From Streptomyces sp. NBC_01276 (lineage in GTDB: Bacteria > Actinomycetota > Actinomycetes > Streptomycetales > Streptomycetaceae): 64,000 bases of DNA. A program made the position numbers and the translations under genes. Of this stretch, positions 47,022 to 51,500 are shown in pieces. Numbering within the stretch: the first letter of the stretch is position 1; every line of letters begins with the position of its first letter. Below the pieces are notes generated by a model. The model was not told the DNA's origin. It saw only the letters and a program-made list of their open reading frames with translations, and made no database searches. The stretch spans positions 4,393,501-4,457,500 of the forward strand of contig NZ_CP108442.1 in assembly GCF_041435355.1 (NCBI RefSeq), written 5' to 3'.

Positions 47022-47477
47022 ATGGACACGGTGGACAGGCAGCTCATCCAGGCACTTCGCGAGAACGGTCGTGCCTCGTATGCGGAGCTGGGCCGTCTCG
47101 TGGGCCTCTCCGGCCCCAGCGTCACCGACCGCATCAACCGTCTGGAGACGGCCGGTGTGATCACCGGCTACCGCGCGACCGTGGACTCGGCCTCGCTCGG
47201 TCTGGGCGTCACCGCGCTGATCGGCATCTCCCTCTCCGACGCCGCGGACCACGAGGACGTGGCGCGCCGGCTGCGCGACCTGGCGGAGATCGAGGACTGC
47301 TGGTTCATCGCCGGCGACGACTCCTTCATGCTCAAGGTCCGCGCCAGCGACGTCGACGGCCTGGAGAAGATCATCCGGAAGCTCTCCGGCACCAAGGGCG
47401 TCTCGCGCACCCGCACCACCATCGTGCTCTCCACGAAGTGGGAGAACCGGGTCGGGGAGCTGCCCGAGGAGGGCTGA
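47022..47477 (+). CDS. Lrp/AsnC-family transcriptional regulator
   Basis: 151 residues from the ATG at 47022 with GGAAGG 8 nt upstream. The helix-turn-helix is MDTVDRQLIQALRENGRASYAELGRLVGLSGPSVTDRINRLE. The C-terminal RAM domain (FIAGDDSFMLKVRASDVDGLEKIIRKLSGTKGVSRTRTTIVLST) binds amino acids or related ligands. Next to mqnE; may regulate it or be global. An inverted repeat overlaps its own promoter, consistent with autoregulation. Confidence 0.93.
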   Translation: MDTVDRQLIQALRENGRASYAELGRLVGLSGPSVTDRINRLETAGVITGYRATVDSASLGLGVTALIGISLSDAADHEDVARRLRDLAEIEDCWFIAGDDSFMLKVRASDVDGLEKIIRKLSGTKGVSRTRTTIVLSTKWENRVGELPEEG

Positions 47478-47532
47478 GAGTACGGTGGGTGGCGGTTGCA
47501 CGCAGGACGGGACACATAGAGGAGACACCGGC

Positions 47533-48696
47533 ATGGACGCTGGGCTCAAGCGCGAGCTGGAGGAGAAGGTCCGCTCCGGCGAGCGGCTGACGCGGGAGGA
47601 CGGCATCGCCCTCTACGAGTCGGACGACCTGGCCTGGCTGGGCGGTCTCGCCCACGAGGTGCGCACGCGCAAGAACGGTGACGTCGTCCACTTCAACGTC
47701 AACCGCCACCTCAACATGACGAACGTCTGCACCGCCTCGTGCGCGTACTGCTCGTTCCAGCGCAAGCCGGGCGAGAAGGACGCGTACACGATGCGCATCG
47801 AGGAGGCCGTCCGCCTGGCCAAGGCCATGGAGAACGAGAACCTCACCGAGCTGCACATCGTCAACGGCCTGCACCCCACCCTGCCGTGGCGGTACTACCC
47901 GCGCTCGCTGTCCGCCCTCAAGGAGGCGCTGCCGAACGTCTCGCTGAAGGCGTTCACGGCCACCGAGATCCACCACTTCGAGACGATCTCCGGTCTCTCG
48001 GCCTCCGAGATCCTGGACGAGCTGATCGAGGCCGGGCTGGAGTCGCTCACCGGCGGCGGCGCGGAGATCTTCGACTGGGAGGTCCGCCAGCACATCGTGG
48101 ACCACCGCACCCACTGGGAAGACTGGTCGCGCATCCACCGCCTGGCGCACGAGAAGGGGCTCAAGACCCCGAGCACCATGCTCTACGGGCACATCGAGGA
48201 GCCGCGCCACCGCGTGGACCACGTGCTGCGGCTGCGCGAGCTCCAGGACGAGACCGGCGGCTTCCAGGTCTTCATCCCGCTGCGCTACCAGCACGACTTC
48301 GTGGACATGCAGGACGGCAAGGTCCGCAACAAGCTCCAGGCGCGCACGACGATGGCGACCGGCGCCGAGGCCCTCAAGACCTTCGCGGTCTCGCGCCTGC
48401 TCTTCGACAACGTGCCGCACGTGAAGGTCTTCTGGGTGATGCACGGCGTGCAGACCGCCCAGCTCGCGCTGCAGCACGGTGCGGACGACATGGACGGCTC
48501 GGTCGTCGAGTACAAGATCACGCACGACGCGGACAACTACGGCACCCCGAACAAGCTGGGCCGCGACGACCTCCTGGAGCTGATCCGCGAGGCGGGCTTC
48601 CGCCCGGTCGAGCGCAACACGCGCTACGAGGTCATCCGCGAGTACCCCGGTCCCGACGCCGGCCTGCGCGAGACCCCGCAGGCGATGCGCGTCTGA
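47533..48696 (+). CDS. mqnE: Aminofutalosine synthase MqnE (radical SAM)
   Basis: 387 residues, ATG at 47533 with GAGGAG 8 nt upstream. The radical SAM cluster C66-x3-C70-x2-C73 lies in VCTASCAYCSF. MqnE joins a radical adduct of S-adenosylmethionine and the 3-[(1-carboxyvinyl)oxy]benzoate to form aminofutalosine, the first committed step of the futalosine menaquinone route. The segments HFNVNRHLNMTNVC and GLESLTGGGAEIFDWEVR are typical of MqnE rather than MqnC. Followed by a classical terminator. Confidence 0.95.
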   Translation: MDAGLKRELEEKVRSGERLTREDGIALYESDDLAWLGGLAHEVRTRKNGDVVHFNVNRHLNMTNVCTASCAYCSFQRKPGEKDAYTMRIEEAVRLAKAMENENLTELHIVNGLHPTLPWRYYPRSLSALKEALPNVSLKAFTATEIHHFETISGLSASEILDELIEAGLESLTGGGAEIFDWEVRQHIVDHRTHWEDWSRIHRLAHEKGLKTPSTMLYGHIEEPRHRVDHVLRLRELQDETGGFQVFIPLRYQHDFVDMQDGKVRNKLQARTTMATGAEALKTFAVSRLLFDNVPHVKVFWVMHGVQTAQLALQHGADDMDGSVVEYKITHDADNYGTPNKLGRDDLLELIREAGFRPVERNTRYEVIREYPGPDAGLRETPQAMRV

Positions 48697-49419: not shown

Positions 49420-49728
49420 GTGTCCCTCAAGCCGAGCGCGACGATCCGCTACACCGCGATGCGCCTGGGCATCTTCGTCGGATGCCTGGTCCTGGTCGCC
49501 GTCCTGGTCAACGTGGGCTGGGTGCCCGCCGGTCTGGGCGACGCCAACCCCGCCTGGGTCGTGCTGCTCGCCCTGGTGCTCTCCGCCCCGCTCTCCTTCA
49601 TCCTGCTGCGCAAGCAGCGTGACGAGATGTCCGAGCAGATCGCGGGACGCGTCGCGGGTGCGAAGGACAAGCTCGCCGCGAACCGCAACCAGGAGGACGC
49701 GGCCGACGACGCCGCCCGCGTGAGCTGA
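49420..49728 (+). CDS. DUF4229-type small membrane protein
   Basis: 102 residues from the GTG at 49420, with AGAAGGGG upstream. Two membrane helices (RLGIFVGCLVLVAVLVNVGWVPAG and AWVVLLALVLSAPLSFILLRKQR) followed by a charged tail (SEQIAGRVAGAKDKLAANRNQEDAADDAAR), matching the DUF4229 family, of unknown function. Follows the GNAT gene by about 107 bp on the same strand. A terminator-like hairpin ends it. Confidence 0.8.
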   Translation: MSLKPSATIRYTAMRLGIFVGCLVLVAVLVNVGWVPAGLGDANPAWVVLLALVLSAPLSFILLRKQRDEMSEQIAGRVAGAKDKLAANRNQEDAADDAARVS

Positions 49729-49790
49729 CGGGAGCCCGTGGGCTTCCTCACACACCGAACGCGCCGAACTCCACCGAACCGCACCGAACC

Positions 49791-49827
49791 GCCCCAGCAC
49801 CGGGAACACCCCCTGGTCCGCTGGGGC
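49791..49827 (+). terminator. Hairpin terminator after the DUF4229 gene
   Basis: An 8-bp stem (49791..49798 with 49820..49827) around a longer loop, then TT. It insulates the Cys-leader/symporter unit that begins at 49884. Confidence 0.55.
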
Positions 49828-49883
49828 TTCGGCATGTCCGGGGGAGTGTGCTCCGCTCCCGTGCGAGCTCGACTCAAAGTACG

Positions 49884-49916
49884 CCTTTGAGATTCTCAAA
49901 GGAGAAGTGTTAGCGT
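49884..49916 (+). promoter_or_regulatory. Palindromic operator and promoter of the leader-symporter unit
   Basis: CCTTTGAGATTCTCAAAGG (49884..49902) is a perfect 19-nt palindrome with a 3-nt centre. It contains a possible -35 (TTGAGA, 49887..49892), 18 nt from a -10-like TAGCGT (49911..49916). Transcription would start near the ATG at 49924, giving a leaderless mRNA. Elements seen; roles inferred. Confidence 0.6.
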
Positions 49917-49923
49917 GTTCAAC

Positions 49924-50031
49924 ATGTTGACCGTCGCAGCGCACCCGATGACCGTGAGCGTCCCGCTCGTGTCACGCCTGCACGTCGACCTCTGCCGCCG
50001 CGTGTCCGCGGCCTGTTGCTGTTGCCGCTGA
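49924..50031 (+). CDS. Poly-cysteine leader peptide (uORF) upstream of the symporter
   Basis: A 35-codon frame, ATG 49924 to TGA 50029..50031, with in-frame ATG at 49948 and GTG at 49969 as alternative starts. The C-terminus is RLHVDLCRRVSAACCCCR, i.e. four successive cysteine codons just before Arg and the stop. The R-x-HVDL-C-R-x-SA-C pattern matches the short actinobacterial leader peptides placed upstream of sulfur genes. Poly-Cys uORFs are known in mycobacteria as cysteine-responsive attenuators. Ribosome stalling on CCCC when Cys-tRNA is scarce would change expression of the downstream symporter (inference). Confidence 0.65.
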   Translation: MLTVAAHPMTVSVPLVSRLHVDLCRRVSAACCCCR

Positions 50032-50063
50032 TTCCCCTCGCCCCGTCGAGCCGAATCGATACA

Positions 50064-50104
50064 GCAGCAGTCCCCGGCCGGCCCGGCCCCTTTCCGGCTG
50101 CTGC
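50064..50104 (+). promoter_or_regulatory. Hairpin between leader ORF and symporter
   Basis: GCAGCAG (50064..50070) pairs with CTGCTGC (50098..50104) around a GC-rich centre that can form inner pairs. It lies 33 nt after the leader stop and could be the attenuator stem. The fold was judged by eye only. Confidence 0.4.
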
Positions 50105-50165
50105 CGCACCGCATCCCCCGCAGAAACCTTCCGCCTCCCCCGTGCGTCACCCCCGGAGAGTGTCC

Positions 50166-51500
50166 GTGTCCGCGTCCCCCCAGGCCCAGGCTCCCGCCAA
50201 GGCCTCGTTCAAGTTCCCGTTCTGGGCCCAGATAGTCGCCGGCCTCGCGTTCGGCGTCCTGTTCGGCTGGCTCGCCCGCAGCCAGGACATCAGCTGGCTC
50301 AAGACCACCCTCGAACAGGTCGGCGACATCTTCATCCAGCTGCTGAAGCTGGCCGTCGCGCCCCTCGTCTTCTTCGCGATCCTGGTGTCCATCACCAACC
50401 TCCGCAAGGTGAACAACGCCGCGCGGCTCGCCACCCGCACGCTGCTCTGGTTCATGATCACCTCGCTGATCGCGGTCGCCATCGGCCTGGCCATCGGCCT
50501 GCTGACCGACCCGGGCGCCGGCACCGGCCTCACCCCGGCCGACGGCAAGGAGCCCAAGCGGCACGGCTCCTGGATCGACTTCCTGACCGGCATCGTGCCG
50601 AAGGACATCATCACGCCGTTCACCGAGCTGAACGTCCTGCAGATCGTCTTCCTCGCCGCCGTCGCCGGCATCGCCGCCCTCCAGCTCGGCGGCAAGGCCC
50701 AGCCCGTCCTGAACCTGGCCGAGTCGGTCCTGGAACTCCTCCAGAAGGCCCTGTGGTGGGTCATCCGCCTCGCCCCGATCGGCACCGTCGGCCTCATCGG
50801 CACCGCCATCGCGAGCTACGGCTGGGACCTGATCGGCAAGTACGCCACCTTCACCGCCGACATCTACATCGGCTGCGCCCTGGTGATGTTCGGCGTCTAC
50901 CCGCTGCTCCTCGCGACGGTCGCCAAGGTCAACCCGGTCCAGTTCTTCAAGGGCGCCTGGCCCGCGATCCAGCTCGCCTTCGTCTCCCGCTCCTCGGTCG
51001 GCACCATGCCGGTCACCCAGAAGGTCACCGAGCGCCTCGGCGTCCCGAAGGAGTACGCCTCCTTCGCCGTCCCGTTCGGCGCCACGACCAAGATGGACGG
51101 CTGCGCCGCGATCTACCCGGCGCTCGCCGCGATCTTCATCGCGAACATCTTCGACGTGCAGCTGGGCATCAAGGAGTACCTGCTCATCGCGTTCGTCTCG
51201 GTCGTCGGCTCCGCCGCCACGGCCGGCCTCACCGGCGCGACCGTGATGCTGACCCTCACCCTCTCCACCCTGGGCCTGCCGCTGGCCGGCGTCGGCCTGC
51301 TGATGGCGATCGACCCGATCCTCGACATGATGCGCACCGCCACCAACGTGGCCGGCCAGGCGCTCGTCCCGGTCCTCGTCTCGGCCCGTGAGGGGATCCT
51401 GGACAAGGAGGCGTACGCCGCCGCCTCGTCCTCCCCGCTCGACGAGCCCGCCGCCGCCCCGGCCGCCGCCGAGCCGGCGAAGGTCCCCGTCGCGGCCTGA
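50166..51500 (+). CDS. Dicarboxylate/amino acid:cation symporter (DAACS family)
   Basis: 444 residues from the GTG at 50166, with GGAG 7 nt upstream. Typical DAACS/SLC1 membrane layout, with the family signatures FVSRSSVGTMPVTQK (hairpin 1), FGATTKMDGCAAIYPALAAIFIANIF (helix 7/8 motif) and NVAGQALVPVLVSARE near the end. DAACS carriers import C4-dicarboxylates, glutamate, alanine or cystine (TcyP type) with H+ or Na+. The poly-Cys leader upstream makes a cysteine, cystine or sulfur-linked substrate worth testing; family membership alone does not decide this. Confidence 0.9.
   Translation: MSASPQAQAPAKASFKFPFWAQIVAGLAFGVLFGWLARSQDISWLKTTLEQVGDIFIQLLKLAVAPLVFFAILVSITNLRKVNNAARLATRTLLWFMITSLIAVAIGLAIGLLTDPGAGTGLTPADGKEPKRHGSWIDFLTGIVPKDIITPFTELNVLQIVFLAAVAGIAALQLGGKAQPVLNLAESVLELLQKALWWVIRLAPIGTVGLIGTAIASYGWDLIGKYATFTADIYIGCALVMFGVYPLLLATVAKVNPVQFFKGAWPAIQLAFVSRSSVGTMPVTQKVTERLGVPKEYASFAVPFGATTKMDGCAAIYPALAAIFIANIFDVQLGIKEYLLIAFVSVVGSAATAGLTGATVMLTLTLSTLGLPLAGVGLLMAIDPILDMMRTATNVAGQALVPVLVSAREGILDKEAYAAASSSPLDEPAAAPAAAEPAKVPVAA

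Follow-up and report, generated by a model that had tools for sequence, protein, structure and literature searches.

A conserved leader peptide with a nearly invariant UGU cysteine codon, and a promoter palindrome shared with cds1, upstream of a DAACS symporter gene in Streptomyces

A short open reading frame upstream of a DAACS/SDF symporter gene in Streptomyces sp. NBC_01276 probably encodes a leaderless, cysteine-responsive pausing leader, which would operate under a second, promoter-level cysteine control, while the symporter likely imports cyst(e)ine or a relative. The features of the leader that are retained among orthologous loci are an HVDL motif and, eight codons downstream, the rare cysteine codon UGU. 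The window referred to below is the whole stretch of DNA analysed, 64,000 nucleotides in length (contig NZ_CP108442.1, positions 4,393,501 to 4,457,500), and coordinates are counted from its first nucleotide.

Layout of the leader-symporter locus

The initial annotation of the window had described a 35-codon frame containing Cys codons, a palindrome, the hexamers TTGAGA and TAGCGT, and a symporter start with a Shine-Dalgarno (SD) sequence, all of which were confirmed by re-reading. The features of the locus are the following.

47022..47477, + strand: nearby gene for an Lrp/AsnC-family regulator (domain match, AsnC_trans_reg)
49873..49879, + strand: candidate extra half-site CTCAAAG, 4 nt 5′ of the 19-nt palindrome (sequence)
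49884..49902, unstranded: candidate palindromic operator CCTTTGAGATTCTCAAAGG, overlapping the −35 region (consensus CTTTGRGNNNCYCAAAG)
49887..49892, + strand: −35-like TTGAGA, within the palindrome (sequence)
49911..49916, + strand: −10-like hexamer TAGCGT, 7 nt 5′ of the leader ATG at 49924 (sequence and ortholog loci)
49924..50031, + strand: leader ORF of 35 codons, MLTVAAHPMTVSVPLVSRLHVDLCRRVSAACCCCR and stop, with the tail ...RLHVDLCRRVSAACCCCR and stop (sequence reading and conservation)
49975..49992, + strand: conserved RLHVDL motif of the leader peptide (119 distinct tails)
49993..49995, + strand: first Cys codon, TGC, at +1 after HVDL, not invariant (leader comparison)
50014..50016, + strand: nearly invariant Cys codon TGT, the eighth codon after HVDL (leader comparison)
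50014..50025, + strand: four-Cys run TGT TGC TGT TGC, element 1 of the proposed switch (sequence and fold)
50062..50070, + strand: element 2, CAGCAGCAG, complementary to both the Cys run and element 3 (minimum-energy fold)
50090..50105, + strand: element 3, consisting of the anti-SD CTTTCCGG (50090-50097) and then CTGCTGCC (fold and complement)
50153..50160, + strand: SD region of the symporter, CCGGAGAG, with GGAG at 50155 (sequence and fold)
50166..51500, + strand: DAACS/SDF symporter, 444 aa, GTG start (PF00375, 353.2 bits)

The symmetry of the palindrome is perfect except at the central base, and TTGAGA and TAGCGT are separated by 18 nt in the window. A scan of positions 49700-50250 against a strict sigma-70 consensus called no promoter, and no intrinsic terminator was detected in the same region, while a search for Rfam elements between 49700 and 50400 returned nothing at the gathering score. 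Further upstream, a radical-SAM gene (47485-48696) encodes the aminofutalosine synthase MqnE (TIGR03700, 541.8 bits), placing the symporter in a menaquinone gene neighbourhood. A frameshift fusion of leader and symporter was considered, since in the window no stop codon interrupts the symporter frame over the length of the leader. It was rejected on the open-frame lengths of near-full-length orthologs, which range from 447 to 868 codons.

Conservation and natural loss of the leader

Symporter orthologs were identified in 83 of the 121 genomes of the genus, with 84 matches (E <= 1e-100), and upstream DNA was read for 81 of these, two fragments and one contig-edge match being left out. A search for the leader in front of the orthologous symporter in other Streptomyces, suggested as a check by the initial annotation, recovers a leader with the motif H[VIL][DEG][LI] at 77 of the 81 loci. 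It is lacking from L062, L071, L082 and L086, although a Cys-rich leader in which HVDL is altered is still present at L071. In a second, partly overlapping set of 80 named loci of the genus, 79 have the leader and 78 the pattern CTTTG-N7-CAAAG. Outside the genus, a symporter match (E <= 1e-80) was obtained in 40 genomes of the class sample, and 19 of the 21 loci read from these carry a leader, for example RLHVDLRRQASAACPA and RLHVDLCRVSSRLCP, each followed by a stop codon.

Of 190 loci, 170 could be used and gave 119 distinct leader tails; the remaining ones mostly held too little symporter sequence. Among these tails the D and L of HVDL are invariant, while H is found in 117 (Y in two) and V in 113 (I in six). 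The underlying codons vary synonymously, with His encoded by CAC in 72 and CAT in 45 tails and Asp by GAT in 76 and GAC in 43. The fixation of RLH[VI]DL against this variation suggests that selection acts on the translated peptide. On these comparisons, the leader is a genuine feature, far above chance. The conservation that the initial annotation looked for thus extends to the leader ORF, within and beyond the genus, while the four-Cys run is confined to the clade of the window. Insertions or duplicated CRCMSA-like segments are found in the leaders L028, L066, L072 and L221, which represent natural variants.

Where the −10-like TA[AGC]CGT hexamer and the start codon could both be read, ATG or GTG follows at exactly 7 nt in 59 of 62 loci. 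The hexamer variants are TAACGT (47 loci), TAGCGT (14) and TACCGT (2). At L062, L082 and L086, where the leader has been lost, a −10-like site and an intact or decayed palindrome are retained, and the palindrome also persists without a leader at L213 of the named set. Furthermore, the symporter ATG of L082 lies 7 nt after TAACGT, the position occupied elsewhere by the leader ATG. These losses, and the spacing at L082, support both the promoter assignment and a leaderless start. The leader mRNA is probably leaderless, with the transcript starting on the leader ATG. The losses also show that the leader can be removed as a module.

Relationship to a family of putative leader peptides

The leader of the window contains the core R-x-[HA]-V-D-L-x-R-x5-C, which was derived here from family members rather than from a curated rule, and scores below cut-off against both NF042934 (15.6 bits; cut-off 27) and NF042933 (leader_Ms5788A; 16.1 bits, cut-off 45, with the frame read from an upstream GTG). 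Symporter leaders of one other genus exceed the NF042934 cut-off in G159, G176 and G191 (30.4, 30.4 and 29.2 bits), while the symporter leaders of G173 and G181 (25.3 and 25.2 bits) fall below it. NF042934 matches above cut-off occur in 57 of 79 genomes of the class and in none of 14 controls. The genome of the window itself encodes seven NF042934-type leaders that pass the cut-off and two more that narrowly miss it. For seven of these nine sister leaders the downstream gene was resolved, and the predicted products are a sulfatase, a ThiS family protein, a cysteine dioxygenase, a NIR_SIR protein, a rhodanese, a luciferase-like monooxygenase and a flavin reductase. The other two of the nine, L100 and L103, are of the HIDL type, the latter having no Cys after HIDL. 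By sequence, the window leader is a divergent relative of the Actinomycetia leader family labelled 'putative' (NF042934/NF042933).

A single UGU codon is the conserved cysteine position

A Cys at the eighth residue after HVDL (+8) is present in 118 of the 119 distinct tails. The codon at this position is TGT in 120 of 124 distinct 57-nt sequences from the genus, the exceptions being L028, L034 and L072 (TGC) and L221 (CGT), and in all 18 distinct sequences from other genera. TGT is furthermore found in 48/48 additional family leaders from the window's own genome and from across the class; these were picked by a pattern that requires Cys at +8 and leaves its codon free, the class-wide ones by leader sequence alone. 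Across the class, 58 NF042934/NF042933 loci were collected, of which 52 were read, giving 40 distinct tails; 38 of these have a Cys at +8, encoded by TGT in every case, and the remaining two trace to a register error of the script (the true +8 codon being TGT) and to a misread locus.

TGT is otherwise rare: of 225 Cys codons counted in the symporter genes, 4 are TGT, and of 19 in nine genes of the window, 1. At other leader positions in the genus, TGC and TGT are represented by 100 vs 13 codons at +1, 44 vs 53 at +3 and 51 vs 6 at +9, while the Cys codons outside +8 in the class-wide family tails comprise 68 TGC and 15 TGT. The number of Cys residues following HVDL varies, with one in 11 of the 119 tails, two in a further 11 and three in 41. 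As judged from these alignments, the poly-Cys run is local to the clade of the window, and the feature that is kept is one Cys at +8 encoded by the rare codon UGU.

This distribution bears on the reading of the leader as a plain codon-starvation attenuator of the mycobacterial kind, in which the number of Cys codons would constitute the sensor and HVDL and UGU would be incidental. The window leader, with five Cys codons of which four are consecutive, fits such a device, and there is published precedent in the leaderless Cys-codon ORFs of mycobacteria, studied experimentally in M. smegmatis by Canestrari et al. 2020 as recounted in the available text of PMC9031893 and PMC13236596. Excerpts of further papers describe Cys leaders at the cys operons of mycobacteria and in a few other cases (PMC1262725), the Cys leader of cysA2 (PMC4633059), and six such ORFs of Mtb in which the Cys codons lower the third-position G/C signal (PMC9094748). 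We nevertheless regard this explanation as unlikely, since the run itself is not kept, whereas HVDL and UGU at +8 are retained in the further family leaders as well. The poly-Cys run which the initial annotation had taken for the sensor can as such not be upheld in that role, only the +8 UGU being nearly invariant.

The base following the +8 UGU is in nearly all cases a pyrimidine (C 0.44 and T 0.53 in the genus, C 1.00 in other genera, C 0.88 and T 0.12 in the further leaders), a bias for which codon choice alone offers no explanation. It would be compatible with the conserved U serving as an RNA-structure or RNA-protein contact rather than as a codon property, and a G-U pair inside the leader is possible, by eye, in one group of leaders from outside the genus. 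An RNA contact of this type is nonetheless quite improbable, given that in silico replacement of U by C shifts the ensemble energy by approximately zero on average and in either direction (−0.12, +0.09 and +0.06 kcal/mol for the sets of 120, 18 and 48 sequences), and that UGU keeps a fixed register with both the reading frame and HVDL.

Wobble decoding of UGU depends on the thiolated A37 (ms2i6A) of the tRNA. Sulfur status could accordingly be sensed through the modification of tRNA-Cys, with low sulfur slowing UGU even where the tRNA is charged. It is UGU rather than UGC that is locked at the sensing codon, and leaders of the family stand before sulfur genes of several kinds, both of which would suit this idea; we consider it very unlikely, as it draws on general tRNA biology. 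The preferred reading remains pausing at UGU for want of charged tRNA-Cys.

Predicted RNA structures between leader and symporter

In the minimum-energy fold of the window, the Cys run pairs with CAGCAGCAG (50062-50070), and CTTTCCGG (50090-50097) pairs with the SD region CCGGAGAG (50153-50160), although neither duplex is significant against shuffled sequences (0.14 for the SD duplex and 0.16 for elements 1 and 2). The same layout was recognised by eye at eight of nine loci in clade A, to which the window belongs, the SD pairing with the leader instead in L009; the lowest-energy fold of L008 combines the 1:2 pairing with that of anti-SD and SD, and a longer anti-SD/SD complement is found in L013-L015 and L017. 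In comparison with shuffles, five of the nine clade A loci fall at or below 5% for SD pairing and three of nine for 1:2 pairing. Over 76 loci, 1:2 pairing has a mean z value of −0.66 and SD pairing one of +0.11, the latter reaching +0.85 in clade B. Simulated ribosome stalling at the 76 loci raises mean SD accessibility from 0.15 to 0.19, against +0.018 in shuffles, with changes of more than 0.05 upward at 28 loci and downward at eight. A general SD sequestration mechanism was rejected, the accessibility and duplex shuffle tests being unsupportive outside clade A. These models weakly suggest that an SD sequestration switch may operate in clade A only.

A promoter palindrome shared with cds1

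The pattern CTTT-N9-AAAG is found upstream of the symporter at 74 of the 81 loci of the genus, and a CAAAG half-site is located 3-9 nt 5′ of the palindrome at 68. In the window's own genome CTTTGAGATTCTCAAAG has one exact site, all other matches requiring three mismatches, while CTTTGAGRTTCTCAAAG occurs with at most one mismatch in 23 of 61 genomes. In two of these, G007 and G013, which lack a symporter match, the palindrome precedes the L-cysteine desulfhydrase gene cds1, the identity of which is given by NCBIfam matches of 604.7 and 600 bits, against a cut-off of 600 bits. The relaxed pattern CTTTGRGNNNCYCAAAG is present in 91/121 genomes, compared with 2/121 for a reversed control. Among the first 61 of the 121 genomes it has 51 sites, of which 32 lie at the symporter, 18 at cds1 and one elsewhere; 39 were placed by coordinates (23 symporter, 15 cds1 and the one in G046) and 12 by reading of the locus (nine symporter, three cds1). 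The G046 site, the only odd operator match, lies inside a 278-codon frame.

By locus, CTTTGRGNNNCYCAAAG occurs upstream of the symporter in 57 of 81 cases and upstream of cds1 in 18 of 31; its lack at the other 13 cds1 loci suggests that use of the operator at cds1 varies between clades. No palindrome was found upstream of cds1 in the window's own genome, nor at any of the 21 symporter loci from outside the genus. The upstream region of the own-genome cds1 (L120) has just a CAAAG half with TTTGTGCAGGTG-like DNA. At cds1, the palindrome is followed on its 3′ side by a block resembling GTGTTTATGCAGGTGAGAAGCG (L117:2537-2600; L118, minus strand, about 2620-2680), which is found again at many of the 31 loci of this gene.

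The palindrome common to both genes suggests that a single cysteine-linked regulator, exerting control at the promoter, likely governs both the transporter and the breakdown of cysteine. A protein binding the palindrome might be the Lrp/AsnC-family product of 47022..47477, a candidate by virtue of being a neighbour. Sharing of an operator with a cysteine-degrading enzyme would fit induction by excess cysteine, which is opposite in sign to a starvation attenuator.

Identity of the symporter

Database names for the symporter are generic. Against carriers of E. coli the window protein scores 160 bits with DctA, 154 with TcyP, 152 with GltP and 68 with SstT. It might as such be an ordinary C4-dicarboxylate/glutamate carrier, with the leader coupling carbon uptake to sulfur status. 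DctA being ahead of TcyP in bits is in keeping with this, as are the best NCBIfam models, DctA (209.7 bits, under the cut-off of 513) and GltP, the closest PDB entry, an aspartate transporter, and the retained TM8 Arg, although TcyP also has a TM8 Arg. However, the TM7 stretch GATTKMDGCAAIYPA (motif DGCAAIYPA) resembles GATIGQNGCAGLYPA of TcyP (motif NGCAGLYPA) and not GltP, DctA or SstT; this pattern is present in the window protein, in 11 of 12 orthologs (none for L171) and in five of five TcyP proteins. The best partner of TcyP in the carrier set is furthermore the window protein (154 vs 127 bits for GltP), and the operator is common to cds1. A dicarboxylate or glutamate carrier therefore appears somewhat unlikely, and the substrate is likely cystine, cysteine or a close relative. 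Placement of the symporter with TcyP by phylogeny was tried and set aside, as the tree left three groups unseparated on long branches and did not join the two.

Compared with the L-cystine symporter TcyP/YdjN of E. coli, as described in the available part of PMC4383340, the window protein shares the SDF fold, 31% identity over 433 residues and the TM7 GCA-x-x-YPA motif. It differs in that its tree grouping is not resolved and in that DctA and GltP are about equally similar by score.

Proposed mechanism and relation to known systems

In the mechanism that we favour, the transcript would start on the ATG of the leader peptide, which would report the cysteine supply to the ribosome. When the ribosome meets UGU, the RLHVDL segment, eight codons behind, would sit at a fixed distance inside the exit tunnel, and where charged tRNA-Cys is short the ribosome would pause at this slow, rare codon. 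The pause would alter the behaviour of the RNA such that symporter expression rises. In the window's clade, the paused ribosome may cover the Cys run, leaving element 2 free to hold element 3 and the SD untrapped, and the additional Cys codons may sharpen the response. The second control would act at the promoter via the palindrome common to cds1. The cysteine-linked leader proposed in the initial annotation is upheld in that the peptide appears translated, is probably leaderless, is tied by descent to the DAACS symporter, has sister leaders before sulfur genes and lies behind a palindrome common to cds1; the part that falls is the poly-Cys run as sensor.

The device is of a known kind. Like the mycobacterial poly-Cys ORFs, in so far as the available accounts describe them, it comprises a short ORF with clustered Cys codons, there before sulfur genes and with pausing tied to cysteine, but its target is a DAACS symporter, its Cys run is not conserved and its promoter operator is common to cds1. 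The uORFC-8-2 upstream of cysS in Rhodobacterales is likewise a tandem-Cys leader ORF with proposed attenuation, but in the text available of PMC8632094 UGC is dominant and an intrinsic terminator is present, whereas UGU is locked in the window family and no terminator was found. Of the eight leader peptides given in the portion available of a reannotation of S. lividans (PMC8079986), not one is assigned to cysteine; metL there has three Cys.

With the NF042934 cis_reg_atten model ('putative leader peptide'), the window family shares the HVDL-x-R-x5-C core, and three symporter leaders from another genus pass its cut-off, which the window leader does not reach; the model name carries no mechanism and, as a protein model, it holds no codon rule. 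NF042933 matches the window leader weakly and its relatives have UGU at +8, but AVDL or AIDL in place of HVDL. In the tryptophan arrest peptide TnaC, conserved residues of the nascent peptide stand at a fixed distance from the pausing codon. The window leader is similar in this, although a free-ligand sensor is not indicated for it, and pausing by uncharged tRNA is simpler; TnaC as an arrest peptide is the subject of PMC10941005.

Among the open-licence papers searched, none was found to describe such a leader before a DAACS carrier, a combination which the initial annotation had held to be undescribed, and none to report a locked UGU codon; the matches listed for 'HVDL' as a literature term were all unrelated. 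Its target is new for such a device, and two features go beyond the initial annotation, namely the UGU locked at a constant distance from HVDL and the operator common to cds1. Extending the argument, the leaders may represent Actinomycetia-wide cysteine-sensing arrest peptides, with [HA]-V-D-L at a fixed spacing from an obligatory rare UGU rather than poly-Cys, joined here to a dedicated operator, and the symporter and cds1 may form a two-gene regulon for uptake and breakdown with AND-type logic, combining an inducer at the promoter with tRNA-Cys charging at the leader. We put this wider proposal forward tentatively, as plausible though slightly short of an even chance.

A leader family called merely 'putative' in databases thereby gains a testable rule, HVDL, eight codons and UGU, which predicts that a synonymous change of UGU to UGC alters gene expression. 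Furthermore, a generically named carrier is tied to cysteine, and what appears from the promoter sequences to be a second cysteine control, common to cds1, is exposed.
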